Assembly (NCBI GenBank): GCA_032027085.1 | Contig: JAVSMS010000001.1 | Coordinates: 4,813,730 to 4,877,729 of the forward strand | Reading direction: 5' to 3' | From: Pseudorhodoplanes sp. | GTDB taxonomy: Bacteria; Pseudomonadota; Alphaproteobacteria; Rhizobiales; Xanthobacteraceae | DNA: 64,000 bases | Part shown: positions 14,232-20,491 of the stretch, one piece after another | Position numbering within the stretch: position 1 is the stretch's first letter | How the letters are laid out: each line of letters starts with the position of its first letter | Program-made: the position numbers and the translations under genes | The notes under the pieces: generated by a model | Database searches by the model: none | The model's input: the letters and a program-made list of their open reading frames with translations, nothing else | What the model was told of the DNA's origin: nothing

Positions 14232-15146
14232 TCATGCGTCACCCGCCTTGCGTCTGGTCTTCTTGTCCTTGAGCGCTTCGTCGCGTGCACGGTTGCGTTC
14301 TTGCGCGGCGGCGTCCGACAGGCGCACCGTGACGCGGTCGGCGAGCCGCAGATCGATCGCGGTGATGTCGCGCGTGAGCAGCTTCTTGTCGCGGTCGAGC
14401 GCGATCAGGGTCTCGATCGCGCGTTCGGGCTGCGCTTCCGGCAGCCGCACGTCGAGGCCGTTCTTCAGCTTGATGTTCCAGCGCCGCTCGGCGACCAGCA
14501 CATAGGCGCGCGCCTGATCGCGGATCGCCGGATAGCGGTCCATGAGCGCGAGAAAATCGGCAGCCCGCTGCGCGGCGCCCTGCCCGACCACCAGCGGAAG
14601 TTTGGCAAATTGCGGATCGACATAGGTTTCAAGCACGGTGCCGTCGCCGGCGATGACCGAGACGCGACCGTCCTTCTGCCAGAGCGCATAGGGCCTTCGC
14701 TCGGTCACCGAGATGTGCAGCCGGTCGGGATAGAGCTTGAGCACCGTGGCGTCGGCGATCCAGGGATTCGCCTTCAGGCGAAGGCGCGCATCGTCGGCGT
14801 TGAGAAAGAGCAGCGAGGTGCGGCCGGTGACGCCGGCGGTCGCCAGAATCTGTTCGCGCGTCAGCTGCGCCTGGCCGACCAGCGCAATGGAGGAAATGTA
14901 AAAGCCCGCGGCATTGGCGAGGGCGTCGCGCGCATCCTTGAACTGCACGACGATGGTATCGACATGGCCGCCGCGCACGGAACCATAAGCGACACTCGCG
15001 GCGATCAGCGTGAAAGCCGCCACATGGCCGGCGCCGCGCGGAATGCGATTTTCGAGCGTGGAAGCGAGACGATGGATCGCGCGCCCGAGACGGGCGAAGA
15101 CATGGGGCCGCTTCAGCGATTGAGCGAGGCGTCCTCGATCATCCAT
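14232..15146 (-). CDS. ftsQ: Cell division protein FtsQ
   Basis: A 304-residue bitopic division protein linking early and late divisome components. A basic cytosolic tail (1-39) is followed by a membrane helix (about 40-57), a POTRA domain beginning near ISSIALVGQAQLTREQI, and the FtsQ beta domain containing TVLKLYPDRLHISVTERRPYALWQ. The frame stays open to 15320, but the extra N-terminal codons are the relic of a ddl 3' end read in frame. The ATG at 15146 (MDDRGRLAQSLKRP) lies inside that relic, just as ftsQ starts normally overlap ddl. The intact ddl is 3.5 kb away. Confidence 0.9.
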   Translation of the reverse strand: MDDRGRLAQSLKRPHVFARLGRAIHRLASTLENRIPRGAGHVAAFTLIAASVAYGSVRGGHVDTIVVQFKDARDALANAAGFYISSIALVGQAQLTREQILATAGVTGRTSLLFLNADDARLRLKANPWIADATVLKLYPDRLHISVTERRPYALWQKDGRVSVIAGDGTVLETYVDPQFAKLPLVVGQGAAQRAADFLALMDRYPAIRDQARAYVLVAERRWNIKLKNGLDVRLPEAQPERAIETLIALDRDKKLLTRDITAIDLRLADRVTVRLSDAAAQERNRARDEALKDKKTRRKAGDA

Positions 15147-15318
15147 CTTACAAAACTCTTCGAACGTTACCCCCGCATGCGCGGCCAGCTCGGGAACGAG
15201 GGACGTTCGCTCATGCCCGGCGGCGATCGCGTCCTGGCAGGCCGGCCCCCTCATCCCCTGCCACGATCGGCAGCGGGCATCAGCGCGCGTCACACCCCGA
15301 CAAGCTAGGGCGCAATGC
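15113..15318 (-). pseudogene. Relic of a ddl 3' end upstream of ftsQ
   Basis: Translated on the minus strand this stretch reads [11 protein letters not shown]..., then [20 protein letters not shown], and, after a one-base shift, [11 protein letters not shown] and a stop at 15113-15115. The intact ddl C-terminus reads [11 protein letters not shown]..., [31 protein letters not shown], stop. The relic therefore covers about the last 66 codons of a D-alanine ligase gene, with one frameshift and many substitutions (by eye about two thirds of bases match the intact copy). It is not translatable as Ddl, but it still carries the ftsQ start codon. Confidence 0.85.
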
Positions 15319-15446
15319 ACTGAGAGAGTCAGTCTTCGGGCTTCTTGGTAAAGTTTCGGTAAAAATTGAGATTAATTGGAGGTTAAAGGTATTGGCCGTC
15401 AAGCAGTACCTTTTCGTGAAGGATCTTTGATCCATTCCACTATTGA

Positions 15447-16631
15447 ACTCATAAAGGCCCTGAGCTGCACCCCGTCTTTGGCCGCGGCGCCGGCAAGACG
15501 CGGCTCGGCGCCGAATGGATACGCGCGCTGGTGCATGGCACGCCGCCTTATGCCGAGCGTCGGCACCGCCGCATCGCGTTGGTCGGCGAAAGCATGCTTG
15601 ATGCCCGTGCGGTGATGATCGAAGGCGAATCCGGTCTGCTGCGCATTTCGCCGCGCGCGGAGCGGCCGATCTGGCTCTCCTCGCGCCGGCGGCTGGAATG
15701 GCCGAACGGCGCGGTGGCGGAGCTCTTCTCCTCGGAAGACCCCGACAGCCTGCGCGGGCCGCAATTCGACGCGGCGTGGTGCGACGAACTCGCCAAGTGG
15801 CACAACGCCGAGGCGACGTTCGACATGCTGCAATTCGCGCTGCGGCTGGGACGGCATCCGCGCCAGCTCATCACCACGACGCCACGCCCGATTCCACTGC
15901 TCAAGCGGCTAATCGCCGATCCGCGCACAGCGGTAACGCGCGCGACGACACACGCGAATGCCGCGCATCTGTCTCCGGCCTTTATCGACGAGGTGATCGG
16001 CCGCTATGCCGGCACGCGGCTCGGACGCCAGGAAATCGACGGCGAGATCATCGAGGACCGGCCGGACGCGCTGTGGTCGCGCGAGACCATCGAACGCGCC
16101 CGCGTCGTCGCCGCGCCGCCGCTGGTGCGGATCGTCATCGGCATCGATCCGCCCGCGTCATCGCGCGATGGCGCCAATGCCTGCGGCATTGTCGCGGCGG
16201 GGCGCAGCGAGGACGGCTGCGTGTATGTGCTTGCGGACGCGACGGTGCACGGCCTGCCGCCGGCGGGCTGGGCGAGCAAGGCGATCGCGCTCTACCGCCG
16301 GCTCAAGGCCGACATCATGGTGGCGGAGGTCAATCAGGGCGGCGAGATGGTGCGCGCGGTGTTGCGCGAGGTGGATGCGTCGGTGCCGCTCAAGATCGTG
16401 CATGCGACCCGCGGCAAATATCTGCGCGCCGAACCTGTCGCCGCGATGTATGCGCAGGGACGGGTGAAGCATCTCGACCCGCCGCTGGAACAACTGGAGG
16501 ACCAGATGTGCGATTTCGGACTGAACGGATTGTCCGACGGCCGGTCTCCCGACCGGCTCGATGCGCTGGTCTGGGCGGTGACGGAACTGACGGCGCCGCG
16601 GCACCAGGGGCCGCGGATCAGGTCTTTGTGA
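15447..16631 (+). pseudogene. GTA-type phage terminase large subunit, 5'-truncated relic
   Basis: The frame encodes a DNA-packaging ATPase/nuclease like gene 2 of gene transfer agents. It shows Walker A GRGAGKTRLGAEW (from base 15480), an adenine/DNA-contact region SLRGPQFDAAWCDELAKW (Walker B-like), the coupling motif LITTTPRPIPLLKRL, and the RNase H-like nuclease VIGIDPPASSRDGANACGIV ... AEVNQGGEMVRAVLREV ... SPDRLDALVWAV. An in-frame stop at 15444-15446 lies 11 codons before Walker A, and no ATG, GTG or TTG occurs between them. The first usable start (GTG 15531) falls after Walker A. About 50-60 N-terminal codons seem lost. No other packaging or capsid gene is nearby, so I call it a dead fragment, though the 366-residue remainder is otherwise intact. 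Confidence 0.8.
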
Positions 16632-16644
16632 TGCGCGAGCGCCT

Positions 16645-16739
16645 TACCGGATGGGCGCGGGTCGCCGGAAAGCGTATAATTTCAATAGTCCTTCGCGACA
16701 TGACCAAGATGCATGAAATATGTGCTGCTCGGCAATCTC
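16645..16739 (+). repeat. Direct repeat, left copy (leader and start of a GYD gene)
   Basis: Bases 16645-16707 match 18151-18213 with only three differences, all transitions. After a short indel, 16713-16739 match 18230-18256 exactly. The copy contains a TATAAT box (TATAGT in the right copy). It starts 14 bases after the terminase stop. Confidence 0.9.
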
Positions 16740-16757
16740 GGCAAGAAGCCCGCATGA
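16713..16757 (+). pseudogene. Truncated copy of the GYD-domain gene
   Basis: The left direct repeat carries the first nine codons of the GYD gene (MKYVLLGNL), then GKKPA and a stop. The Shine-Dalgarno box GGGAGG of the intact copy is deleted, so this 14-codon relic is unlikely to be translated. Confidence 0.75.
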
Positions 16758-16795
16758 AGCGAAGCGAGTTGACCTTGCTATCCCGGGTTTCGGTT

Positions 16796-17986
16796 TTATC
16801 GATCGATCTCTCCGAACACAATGTCGAGTGAGCCGATGATGGCCGCGACATCGGCCAGCATGTGCCCGCGGCTCAGATAGTCCATCGCCTGGAGATGGGC
16901 GAAAGAAGGGGCTCGAATCTTGCACTTGTAGGGCCGGTTGGTGCCGTCGGAGACGAGATAGACGCCGAACTCGCCCTTCGGCGCCTCGACCGCCGCATAG
17001 ACCTCGCCGGCAGGAACACGGTGCCCTTCGGTGTAAAGCTTGAAATGGTGAATCAGCGCCTCCATCGAGCGCTTCATTTCGGCGCGTGGCGGCGGGGCAA
17101 TCTTGTTGTCCTGAATGATTACAGGCCCCTGCCCTTCGGGCAGTCTTAGTTTCTCGAGGCACTGCTTCATGATGCGCACCGACTGGCGCATCTCTTCCAT
17201 GCGGATGAGGTAGCGGTCGTAGCAGTCGCCGTTCTTGCCGACCGGAATATCGAAATCGAGCTCGGGATAGCACTCGTAGGGTTGCGCCTTGCGCAAATCC
17301 CAGACGGCACCGGAGCCGCGCACCATCACGCCGGAAAATACCCAGGCCCAGGCGTCTTCCAGCTTCACCACGCCGATATCGACATTGCGCTGCTTGAAGA
17401 TGCGGTTGCCGGTGAGCAGGGCATCGAGATCGTCGACAACCTTGAGGAAGGGATCGCAGAAGGCCCAGATGTCATCGAGCAGCTTCGGCGGCAGATCCTG
17501 GTGCACGCCACCGATGCGGAAATAGTTGGCATGCATGCGCGCGCCCGACGCCTTCTCATAGAACACCATCAGTTTCTCGCGTTCCTCGAAGCCCCAGAGC
17601 GGCGGGGTGAGCGCGCCGACATCGAGCGCTTGCGTTGTGACGTTGAGGAGATGCGAGAGCAGCCGTCCGATCTCGCAATAGAGCACGCGGATCAACTGCC
17701 CGCGCTTCGGCACGGTGATGCCAAGAAGCTTCTCGGTCGCGAGGCAGAAGGCATGTTCCTGATTCATCGGCGCGACGTAATCGAGCCGGTCGAAATAGGG
17801 GATCGCCTGCAGATAGGTCTTGTGCTCGATCAGCTTCTCAGTGCCGCGATGCAGCAAGCCGATATGTGGATCGACCCGCTCGACCACCTCGCCGTCGAGC
17901 TCGAGCACAAGCCGCAGCACGCCGTGGGCTGCAGGATGCTGAGGCCCAAAATTGATCGTGAAGTTGCGCTCCGCAGGCCGAGCCAT
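16796..17986 (-). CDS. nuoD: NADH-quinone oxidoreductase subunit D (49-kDa), solitary copy
   Basis: A 396-residue NuoD/49-kDa subunit, which forms the quinone chamber of complex I on the cytosolic side. The family start [26 protein letters not shown], the [14 protein letters not shown] segment, the [16 protein letters not shown] helix and the C-terminal [28 protein letters not shown] are all intact, and length is normal. I chose ATG 17986 ([10 protein letters not shown]), preceded by GAGG; the frame continues to 18076. No other nuo gene is near, and it lies between direct repeats within the dcw cluster. It may be an extra copy or the organism's only nuoD moved out of the operon; the window cannot tell. 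Confidence 0.92.
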
Positions 17987-18150
17987 CGCAAGCCTCATCT
18001 CGGCTGCAAATGGAACGCTGCCCTGGTTCCCCGGGTTCCAGCCCGCAGGGTGCGACAGCGAAGCGTATCGCACCATTTTATCTATTGGCGATCAGCGGCA
18101 GGACATGTGTCGCGCTATTGTGATGCGCAAGCACACGCCGCATGGCGAGG

Positions 18151-18256
18151 TACCGGATGGGCGCGGGTCGCCGGAAGGCGTATAGTTTCAACAGTCCTTC
18201 GCGACATGACCAATGATCGGGAGGTGGCCATGAAATATGTGCTGCTCGGCAATCTC
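18151..18256 (+). repeat. Direct repeat, right copy (intact GYD leader)
   Basis: Partner of the repeat at 16645, 1,506 bp away in the same orientation. It includes the probable promoter region with TATAGT, the Shine-Dalgarno GGGAGGTGG and the first nine codons of the GYD gene. The two copies enclose nuoD. Confidence 0.9.
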
Positions 18257-18514
18257 AGCGCGGAATGGGCCAGCAAGCAGTCAGAGCGGACCGGCAAAGC
18301 CAGGGCAAAGCTCGACAAGCTTGGCATCAAGATCGAGTCGATCCATTACACGCAGGGCTATTACGATTTCGTCGACATCGTCGATGCTCCGTCTCCGGAG
18401 GCGATGCTCGCGTTTTCAGTCTGGTACTCGACGCAGGGCCTGGGCCGGATTCAAAGCATGCCGGCGTTCGACGCCGCGAGCTTCGAAACCGCAATCAAGG
18501 ACGCCGCAGGCTGA
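18230..18514 (+). CDS. GYD-domain (ferredoxin-like fold) small protein
   Basis: A 94-residue protein with the beta-alpha-beta pattern of GYD/YciI-like dimeric alpha-beta barrel proteins: MKYVLLGNL strand, a long helix with KARAKLDKLGIKIESI, then YTQGYYDFVDIVDAPSPEAMLAF, where GYYD is the family signature. The ATG at 18230 follows GGGAGGTGGCC, a good ribosome site; an upstream in-frame ATG (MTNDREVAM) is less well placed. It is on the plus strand, opposite to the dcw genes, and ends 142 bp before the convergent ddl stop. The biochemical role of the family is not settled. Confidence 0.8.
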   Translation: MKYVLLGNLSAEWASKQSERTGKARAKLDKLGIKIESIHYTQGYYDFVDIVDAPSPEAMLAFSVWYSTQGLGRIQSMPAFDAASFETAIKDAAG

Positions 18515-18656
18515 GACGGCGCCGCGGTATCGGGGGCCGAGAATCAGCAGGATGGGTTGAGCGCAAGCGAAACCCATCACGTTGGGTTACGCGCGGCGCG
18601 AAGGTTCGGACCTGTCGCTCGGCCGTGGCCGGTTTAACCCAACCTGCCACCGCCGT

Positions 18657-19574
18657 TCACCGCCCGAGCGAAGCGTCCTCTATCATCCAGCGCACCAGCT
18701 CCTCGAAGCTGATGCCGGCATGCGCGGCGAGCTCCGGCACCAGCGAGGTCTCGGTCATGCCCGGCTGGGTGTTGACCTCGAGACAGGCGAGGCCCTGCCT
18801 GCCCGCCGTGTCATCGTAGCGGAAATCGGCGCGCGTCACGCCGCGGCAGCCAAGCGCGCGATGCGCGGCGAGCGTGAGGCGCCGTATCTCTTCATAAACG
18901 TCGGGTGGAATCTTTGCCGGCAGGACGTGCTCGGAGCCGCCCGGCGCATATTTCGCCTCGTAATCGTAGAAGCGCACCTTCGGCACGATTTCGATCACGC
19001 CCAAAGCCGTCTCCCCCATCACCGCGCAGGTCAATTCCTTGCCGGGAATATACTGCTCGCACAACACCGTCTCGCCAAAGGTCCAGTCCTCGCGGAACAA
19101 TTCCTGCGGCGGATGTTCGTGCTTGTCGGTGACGATGAAGACGCCGACGCTCGAGCCTTCGGCGATCGGCTTGATCACATAGGGCCGCGGCAGCACGTGC
19201 TGCTTCGCCGCCTCGAAACGCGACACAACCATCCCCTCAGGCACCGGCACGCCGGCCGCCTTCAGCATGATCTTGGCGAGATCCTTCTGCATGGCGAGCG
19301 AGGACGCCAGCACCCCGGAATGCGTGTAGGGAATGCCGATCACTTCCAGCACGCCCTGCAACGTGCCGTCCTCGCCGGGACGGCCGTGCAGCACGTTGAG
19401 CGCAACGTCGGGCTTGAGATTTTGCAGCACGGTCGCGATATCGCGCTCAACGTCGATGCGGGTGACGCGATAGCCGGCACGCTCGGCGGCGGCTGCGCAG
19501 GCAGCCCCCGAGCGCAGCGACACCTCGCGCTCGGCCGACCAGCCTCCCATGAGAACGGCGACGTGTTTGCTCAT
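18657..19574 (-). CDS. ddl: D-alanine--D-alanine ligase
   Basis: A 305-residue ATP-grasp ligase making the D-Ala-D-Ala dipeptide for peptidoglycan. It has the N-terminal [17 protein letters not shown] motif, the [25 protein letters not shown] segment, the ATP loop [10 protein letters not shown], the [11 protein letters not shown] metal-site region and [18 protein letters not shown] with the metal-binding Asn. The ATG overlaps the murB stop by four bases (ATGA), so the two are translationally coupled. The usual next gene, ftsQ, is displaced by the 15.1-18.6 kb block. Confidence 0.95.
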
Positions 19575-20491
19575 TGCGCCACTCCGATGCGCTTGATTTC
19601 CCATTCCAGCGTCACGCCGGAATTCTCCTGCACGCGCCGGCGCACGGTCTCGCCCAGCGTCTCGATGTCATGCGCGGTCGCGTTGCCGCGATTGATTAGG
19701 AAGTTGCAGTGCAATTCGGAGACCTGCGCGTCGCCGACGACGAGGCCGCGGCAGCCGGCGGCGTCGATCAATTGCCAGGCCTTGTGGCCTTCCGGATTCT
19801 TGAAGGTGGAGCCGCCGGTACGGCTCTTGATCGGCTGCGTTGACTCACGCGCCTCGGTGATCTTGTCCATCTCCGCGGCGATCGCCGCGCGGTCGCCCGG
19901 TGCGCCCTGGAACAGCGCCTGCGTGAAAATGATGTCCTCGGGCGCGCCGCAATGGCGATAGGTGTAATGCATGTCGCCATTCTTGAAGACATGCAGCCTG
20001 CCGGCGCGGTCGACGCCGCGCGCCTCGATCAACGCATCTTTGGTCTCGCGGCCATAGGCACCGCCATTCATGCGCAGCGCGCCGCCGACGCCGCCGGGAA
20101 TGCCACGCATGAAGGAAAGACCGGCAATGCCGGCCTCCTGCGCCGCTCGCGCCACCTTCACATCCGGCACCGCGGTGCCGACGCGGATGCGTGCGCCCTC
20201 TTCCACCGTGATGTCGCTGAAGCCGCGGCCAAGCCGGATCACGACGCCGGGCACGCCGCCGTCGCGCACGATCAGGTTGGAGCCGAGACCGACGACGATG
20301 ACGGGAATGTCAGCCGGCAGGTTCTGCAGAAAGTAAGCGAGATCGCTTTCGTCCTCGGGCGTGAACAACACCTGCGCCGGCCCACCGACGCGAAACCAGG
20401 TGAGATCGGCGAGCGGCTGGTTGGCGATCAGCCGTCCGCGCAATTGCGGCATCTTCGCTTTCATGTCGGCGGTGATGTCAGGAAAGGTCAT
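19571..20491 (-). CDS. murB: UDP-N-acetylmuramate dehydrogenase
   Basis: A 306-residue FAD enzyme that reduces enolpyruvyl-UDP-GlcNAc to UDP-MurNAc. FAD-binding signatures include [14 protein letters not shown] and [35 protein letters not shown] carries the catalytic serine and ELHCNFLIN the C-terminal active-site region. The start at 20491 ([21 protein letters not shown]) fits relatives; an ATG five codons upstream (20506), right after GAGGGGG, cannot be ruled out. A palindromic repeat region separates it from murC by more than 200 bp. Confidence 0.94.

Follow-up and report, generated by a model that had tools for sequence, protein, structure and literature searches.

In Escherichia coli the promoters of ftsQ lie inside the upstream gene ddlB, and it is common in operons that neighbouring genes overlap, with the start of one gene lying within the end of the other. 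A separate body of theory, duplication-degeneration-complementation (subfunctionalisation), holds that two gene copies may divide between them the functions that were once held by one. Passages of the published literature describe the ddlB-ftsQAZ operon of E. coli (PMC3265435), report that CtrA controls ftsQA in Caulobacter (PMC4433202), and give TTAA-N7-TTAAC as the CtrA consensus (PMC7200025).

In this study, we analysed the joint between ddl and ftsQ in a window of 64,000 nucleotides from Pseudorhodoplanes sp. together with the same joint in related bacteria. As in E. coli, ftsQ control DNA appears to lie within the coding sequence of an upstream ddl, but the element embedded here, a direct-repeat box, has a different sequence and has repeatedly been freed by a second ddl tail. 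As in Caulobacter, there is an apparent ftsQ site with an 11-bp period, as in TTAA-N7-TTAAC; however, the half-site here is TTTACC and sits inside the ddl frame, and none of 15 Caulobacterales loci carried the box in ddl. The arrangement differs from other overlapping operon pairs in that a putative regulator site lies within the overlap as well, and in that the overlap has come apart repeatedly. It resembles subfunctionalisation in that the copies share out the functions of a single copy, but the second copy is only part of a bacterial gene, and the functions divided would be protein coding on the one side and the control DNA and start codon of a neighbour on the other. We found no description of an ftsQ box in an alphaproteobacterial ddl, or of such a separation, in the titles, abstract starts and passages of the open-licence PMC literature.

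The ddl-ftsQ joint in the window

The dcw genes of the window run on the minus strand in the order murC, murB, ddl, a mixed stretch of 3.3 kb, and ftsQ (Table 1). While murC was named by reading, FtsQ, the terminase large subunit, Complex1_49kDa (nuoD), GYD and Ddl were recognised by Pfam matches. From the relic towards the intact ddl, the mixed stretch holds a truncated terminase, a truncated GYD head, an extra nuoD and a GYD gene. A preliminary description of this DNA had recognised a foreign block with terminase, GYD and nuoD splitting ddl from ftsQ, and a frameshifted ddl 3' end that holds the ftsQ start, with a full ddl on the far side; Pfam matches and reading of the sequence bore out both points. 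The similarity which that description had seen between the relic and ddl is significant by alignment, with 71% DNA identity between positions 15107-15332 and the 3' end of the intact ddl of the same genome (E 6.6e-17), and against the ddl genes of three members of the same genus (G002, G003 and G004) it reaches 15370 at 76-78.5% identity. The start codon of ftsQ (15146) lies within the relic.

Table 1. Positions of the features at the ddl-ftsQ joint, numbered from the first letter of the window
Feature	Position	Strand	Basis
ftsQ, 304 aa	14232..15146	-	Pfam POTRA_1 and FtsQ_DivIB_C; start placed by reading the sequence
ddl 3'-end relic, frameshifted	15107..15370	-	DNA identity to own ddl and to ddl genes of the genus
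Element CCGAAGACTG, adjoining the box on its downstream side and retained in several relics	15330..15339	-	Sequence comparison
Direct-repeat box TTTACCGAAACTTTACC, putative ftsQ regulator site	15347..15363	-	Family-wide pattern
TTAA-N7-TTAA adjoining the box, also in G005	15372..15386	-	Motif scan
Terminase large subunit gene lacking its N-terminus and start codon	15464..16631	+	Pfam Terminase_6N, 6C
Truncated duplicate of GYD head and upstream DNA	16645..16742	+	Direct repeats D1, D7
Solitary second nuoD, 396 aa	16796..17986	-	Pfam Complex1_49kDa
GYD-domain gene, 94 aa	18230..18514	+	Pfam GYD; rare across the family
Intact ddl, lacking both the box and an embedded ftsQ start	18657..19604	-	Pfam and codon analysis

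Overlap of ddl and ftsQ in relatives

Comparison of the ddl-ftsQ intervals in close genomes showed that the arrangement of the window is not common to all relatives. Most of the relatives sampled have overlapping ddl and ftsQ genes, with the box inside the ddl frame at a single codon register and the ftsQ ATG spanning two ddl codons. Within the genus, G002, G003 and G004 have a single ddl tail, within which ftsQ starts; the ddl frame also contains an AT-rich element bearing TTTACC-N5-TTTACC.

A total of 116 ddl-ftsQ loci were scored, drawn from 61 relatives, a family sample of 198 genomes and 20 genomes without a ddl match. In the family sample, 142 of 198 genomes had a ddl match, of which 60 were fetched and 58 were usable, and 19 of the 20 fetched without a match gave ftsQ. 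At a threshold of E 1e-60, 56 of the 198 family genomes had no ddl match, and 14 of the 20 no-match genomes examined further have a ddl of 32-35% identity upstream of ftsQ. The 116 loci comprise 96 with a native ddl, 17 with another or a broken ddl and three without ddl in the stretch. The box was counted in ddl at up to two mismatches of 12 and in the interval at up to one.

With a native ddl and an interval shorter than 250 bp, the box lies in ddl in 76 of 79 loci, the exceptions being G041, G055 and G057. With a native ddl and a longer interval (17 loci), the box is kept in ddl in four (G056, G079, G159 and G171) and is found in the interval in ten; a TTAACC-type box, assigned afterwards, occurs in two more (G063 and G099), and G040, with an expanded interval, has no box. 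Not one of the 96 native-ddl loci has the box in both places. G005, which stands outside the 96, carries the box in its relic. In 14 of the 17 loci with other or broken ddl the gene is 32-35% identical, and in each of these the box lies between that gene and ftsQ; of the rest, G009 resembles a frameshifted native ddl, and G073 and G092 are without box. Among the three loci without ddl, G019 has the box, and G074 and G103 have the TTAACC type. Two elements on which ftsQ appears to depend lie within ddl, and they are found with ftsQ once the genes part.

In a set of 80 named loci, the box was in ddl at nine of 20 labelled Hyphomicrobiales, at one of 20 without an order and at none of 40 from other orders. 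Two of the other 11 Hyphomicrobiales-labelled loci (L104 and L106) have the box in the interval and one (L112) has the TTAACC type; the rest, including Parvibaculum and Reyranella, showed no box. Some genomes are shared between this set and the 116 loci (L104 is G036 and L112 is G063), thus the two sets are not independent. The distance from box to ftsQ start was 224 bp in each of five overlapping genomes measured, and 105-251 bp in relics (22 of 26 relics with a recognised start).

Codon constraint on ddl

The codon analysis covered 79 genomes with a ddl box and excluded G009 and G030. When the 293 ddl codon columns are ranked by the AT content of the third position, four box codons take the first four places (1.00, compared with a mean of 0.22); the codon that gives the A of the ftsQ ATG comes fifth (0.95). 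The leucine of the box is TTA in 51 of 51 cases, compared with 41 of 2214 leucines elsewhere; the putative control site forces rare codons on ddl. In 13 relic-type ddl genes, the Leu, Ser or Lys of the box residue has become Pro (8), Ala (4) or Ser (1), and the Gln of the box region, present in 79 of 79 box-bearing ddl genes, is Glu in 8 of 13. The embedded ftsQ ATG occurs in 73 of the 79 genomes with a ddl box and in only two of the 13 relic-type ddl genes (G006 and G036). Independent pairs agreed in six of six cases for loss of the box (p 0.03) and in about five of six for loss of the start (p 0.06), the former test being partly circular because the relic-type grouping used the absence of the ddl box. 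The coding ddl has lost the box and mostly the ATG and the relic has lost coding, which would amount to a different functional loss in each copy if the box acts as supposed.

We consider it probable, on the whole, that across much of Hyphomicrobiales a control site of a division gene is locked in the frame of ddl, which encodes a cell-wall enzyme, and that it fixes there the residues Leu/Ser/Lys-Pro-x-x-Val/Ile-Tyr-Gln; that escape has occurred repeatedly, through a second ddl tail or replacement of ddl; that the freed enzyme converges (on Pro or Ala, and mostly on Glu); and that the spacer then takes up foreign DNA within an otherwise tight dcw cluster. The loci would provide repeated natural cases in which a control site and a start codon part from protein-coding sequence, and with the states before and after standing side by side, the cost of embedding becomes measurable. 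If true, the proposal would also explain the rigid ddl-ftsQ order in these bacteria until the overlap opens, and it predicts an ftsQ regulator site that is invisible to scans excluding intragenic matches; according to passages of a Sinorhizobium study of transcription start sites, only CtrA matches without ORF overlap were retained there (PMC3616915).

Retention and origin of the relic

The preliminary description had suggested that the block entered together with a duplication of the ddl tail. This is unsupported, since clear ddl-tail relics of 148-298 bases and 66-73% identity (blastn of the own tail against the interval) occur in the block-free relatives G006, G024 and G036. By the same comparison the relic of G007 amounts to 25 bases only, and G001 gave none, though its box is present; the ddl-ftsQ intervals of these five genomes are 314-671 bp long and hold no block. 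As relatives have relics without the block, the relic is not a by-product of it, and the cause of the split is more general than the block.

When relic segments were aligned to the best among 17 chosen overlapping tails, 11 native relics kept 80% of the box, 77% of the start and 64.9% of the middle, compared with 46.5%, 62% and 64.2%, respectively, in 104 shuffled control sequences, so that the middle of native relics is no higher than shuffled. In 15 of 17 displaced-state loci, 87% of the box, 84% of the start and 70% of the middle were kept. On a tree of FtsQ and FtsA from 117 genomes, built by a quick search, the relic state requires seven changes (six forced, on starred branches) and the displaced state eight (seven forced, on starred branches).

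The relic is likely a retained control region of ftsQ, as far as sequence comparison can tell. In most sampled Hyphomicrobiales relatives, where the pattern itself is seen, the DNA driving and starting ftsQ would lie within the 3' end of ddl. In the genus of the window the ddl tail would have been doubled, either because the tail was duplicated in tandem or because a second ddl arrived; the upstream copy has retained coding and lost box and start codon, and the downstream copy the reverse. DNA inserted between the copies breaks neither gene, and the spacer would thus tolerate foreign DNA. To judge from the relatives, the terminase piece appears to have entered before the split of this genome (G000) from G005, and GYD and nuoD, seen only in G000, probably arrived later. 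The preliminary description had also held that the split uncouples ftsQAZ: read-through from ddl should indeed be lost, but ftsQ has kept its putative box.

It has a reasonable, if minority, chance of being right that no tandem copy of the tail was made, and that the old ddl decayed after a related second ddl arrived upstream, the relic being kept for the same reason. The genomes with a displaced ddl show such a route, and the ddl of G001 falls outside its genus, in a ddl tree that is weak (11 of 93 branches starred). On the other hand, the nearest rows of the ddl genes of G000, G005, G006 and G007 are mostly genus members among the matches listed, and their highest ddl identity is to G005, G007 and G004. 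Decay of an older ddl had been the second suggestion of the preliminary description; it suits other relatives, in which a 32-35% identical ddl lies upstream and a native-type tail beside ftsQ, and for the relic of the window the ddl tree does not separate it from tandem duplication.

Very improbable is the entry of a prophage or integrative element into the ddl 3' end with a replacement tail, followed by decay to the terminase, which would make the relic the displaced tail on the attachment side. While in G000 and G005 the two tails do flank a phage-type terminase, the relics of G006, G024 and G036 are terminase-free, and such an entry does not predict a box that is lost from the coding ddl yet retained beside ftsQ. 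Duplication of a phage attachment site was rejected, as relics exist without the block and duplication and element are not coupled. Least credible is unselected debris with box and start conserved by chance or common descent only, since, although some relics are ddl-like over most of their length (e.g. G080), native relics on average retain box and start but resemble ddl in the middle no more than shuffled sequences do, the coding ddl has lost the box in the same genomes, and the tree holds several independent changes.

Putative regulator of the box

For the retained control region proposed here, the box would be the binding site of a response regulator of OmpR type that times ftsQ in the division cycle, with CtrA the foremost candidate. 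Like CtrA sites, which have N7 between TTAA and TTAA, the box has a half-site period of 11 bp, and such a period suits OmpR-type regulators. Each half-site is one base off the CtrA half-sites TTAA and TTAAC, so the box is degenerate relative to the CtrA consensus. Immediately upstream of the box, G000 and G005 carry a TTAA-N7-TTAA, and one also lies within the G099 interval; a scan of 81 overlapping and 17 displaced genomes gave no such motif beside the box. In the genome as a whole TTAA-N7-TTAAC is not enriched, with 19 matches against 16 for the control. That CtrA binds the box is put forward tentatively, as a motif-based proposal with somewhat less than an even chance. BvrR would be an alternative, as ChIP-seq signals at ftsQ and ftsA are given for it in passages on Brucella (PMC9491525). 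Two other regulators were rejected on motifs given in passages of the literature, namely CenR, with the Rhodobacter motif TGA-N8-TGA (PMC9275681), and NtrX, with GCA-N9-TGC (PMC7240162), neither of which resembles the box.

The exact pattern TTTACC-N5-TTTACC has two sites in the 4.97-Mb genome, and a reversed control pattern has none. The other exact site (L184 1501-1517, G000:C1:4495178-4495194) lies between an MlaE-type permease gene and a gene of the mandelate-racemase family, both of which may be cell-envelope genes. TTAACC-N5-TTAACC also has two sites in this genome, one of them preceding a chemotaxis-receptor-like gene. A scan of 14900-18700 for sigma-70-type promoters gave no match where 1.0 was expected, and a search of 15140-15345 for a structured leader RNA found no structure above chance (z -0.21).

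Contents of the block

The terminase insertion is common to G000 and its sister G005 and to no other relative. The block terminase, which lacks its N-terminus and start codon, is 88% identical in DNA to the G005 copy, with a dN/dS of 0.21 for the pair. That copy lies beside ddl and ends at the ddl stop; the G005 relic is on a different contig, and both are at contig ends. The block runs from terminase to GYD and nuoD without portal or structural genes, unlike the order of a gene transfer agent. A gene-transfer-agent fragment was considered as a possible source. A portal gene lies some 6 kb from the second terminase of this genome, rather than next to it, and the ORFs tested between the two matched no phage structural family.

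DNA matches to GYD were found in nine of 198 family genomes, including G000; of the remaining eight, four match over a long stretch, one has a short match at a contig end, and in three the match is confined to a dispersed repeat. The other seven members of the genus gave no match.

The block nuoD encodes a protein 88% identical to that of the copy at 3.43 Mb (dN/dS 0.11; 0.09-0.12 against three nuoD copies), and the sequence most similar to it is the operon nuoD, at 84.6% DNA identity and a dS of 0.67. A quick tree with 33 rows places the block nuoD together with a copy from G028, outside the genus; a recent copy of the operon nuoD is disfavoured by this placement.

Two features had not been reported by the preliminary description: the block nuoD is on the same strand as the dcw genes, and it is flanked by two copies of the GYD head with its upstream DNA, the truncated one of Table 1 and another at 18151-18259. 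In addition, the 3' end of the terminase is duplicated (16589-16621 and 18515-18547, 85%), the second copy lying right after the GYD gene, thus the block has nested duplications of its own. Positions 18549-18581 belong to a short dispersed repeat, with further occurrences in this genome and in G064, G097 and G216. In G019 (L052 8525-9934, G019:C83), a terminase 79% identical in DNA to that of the block lies between genes read as murB and murC, so that a terminase is found in the dcw cluster there too, at a different joint.
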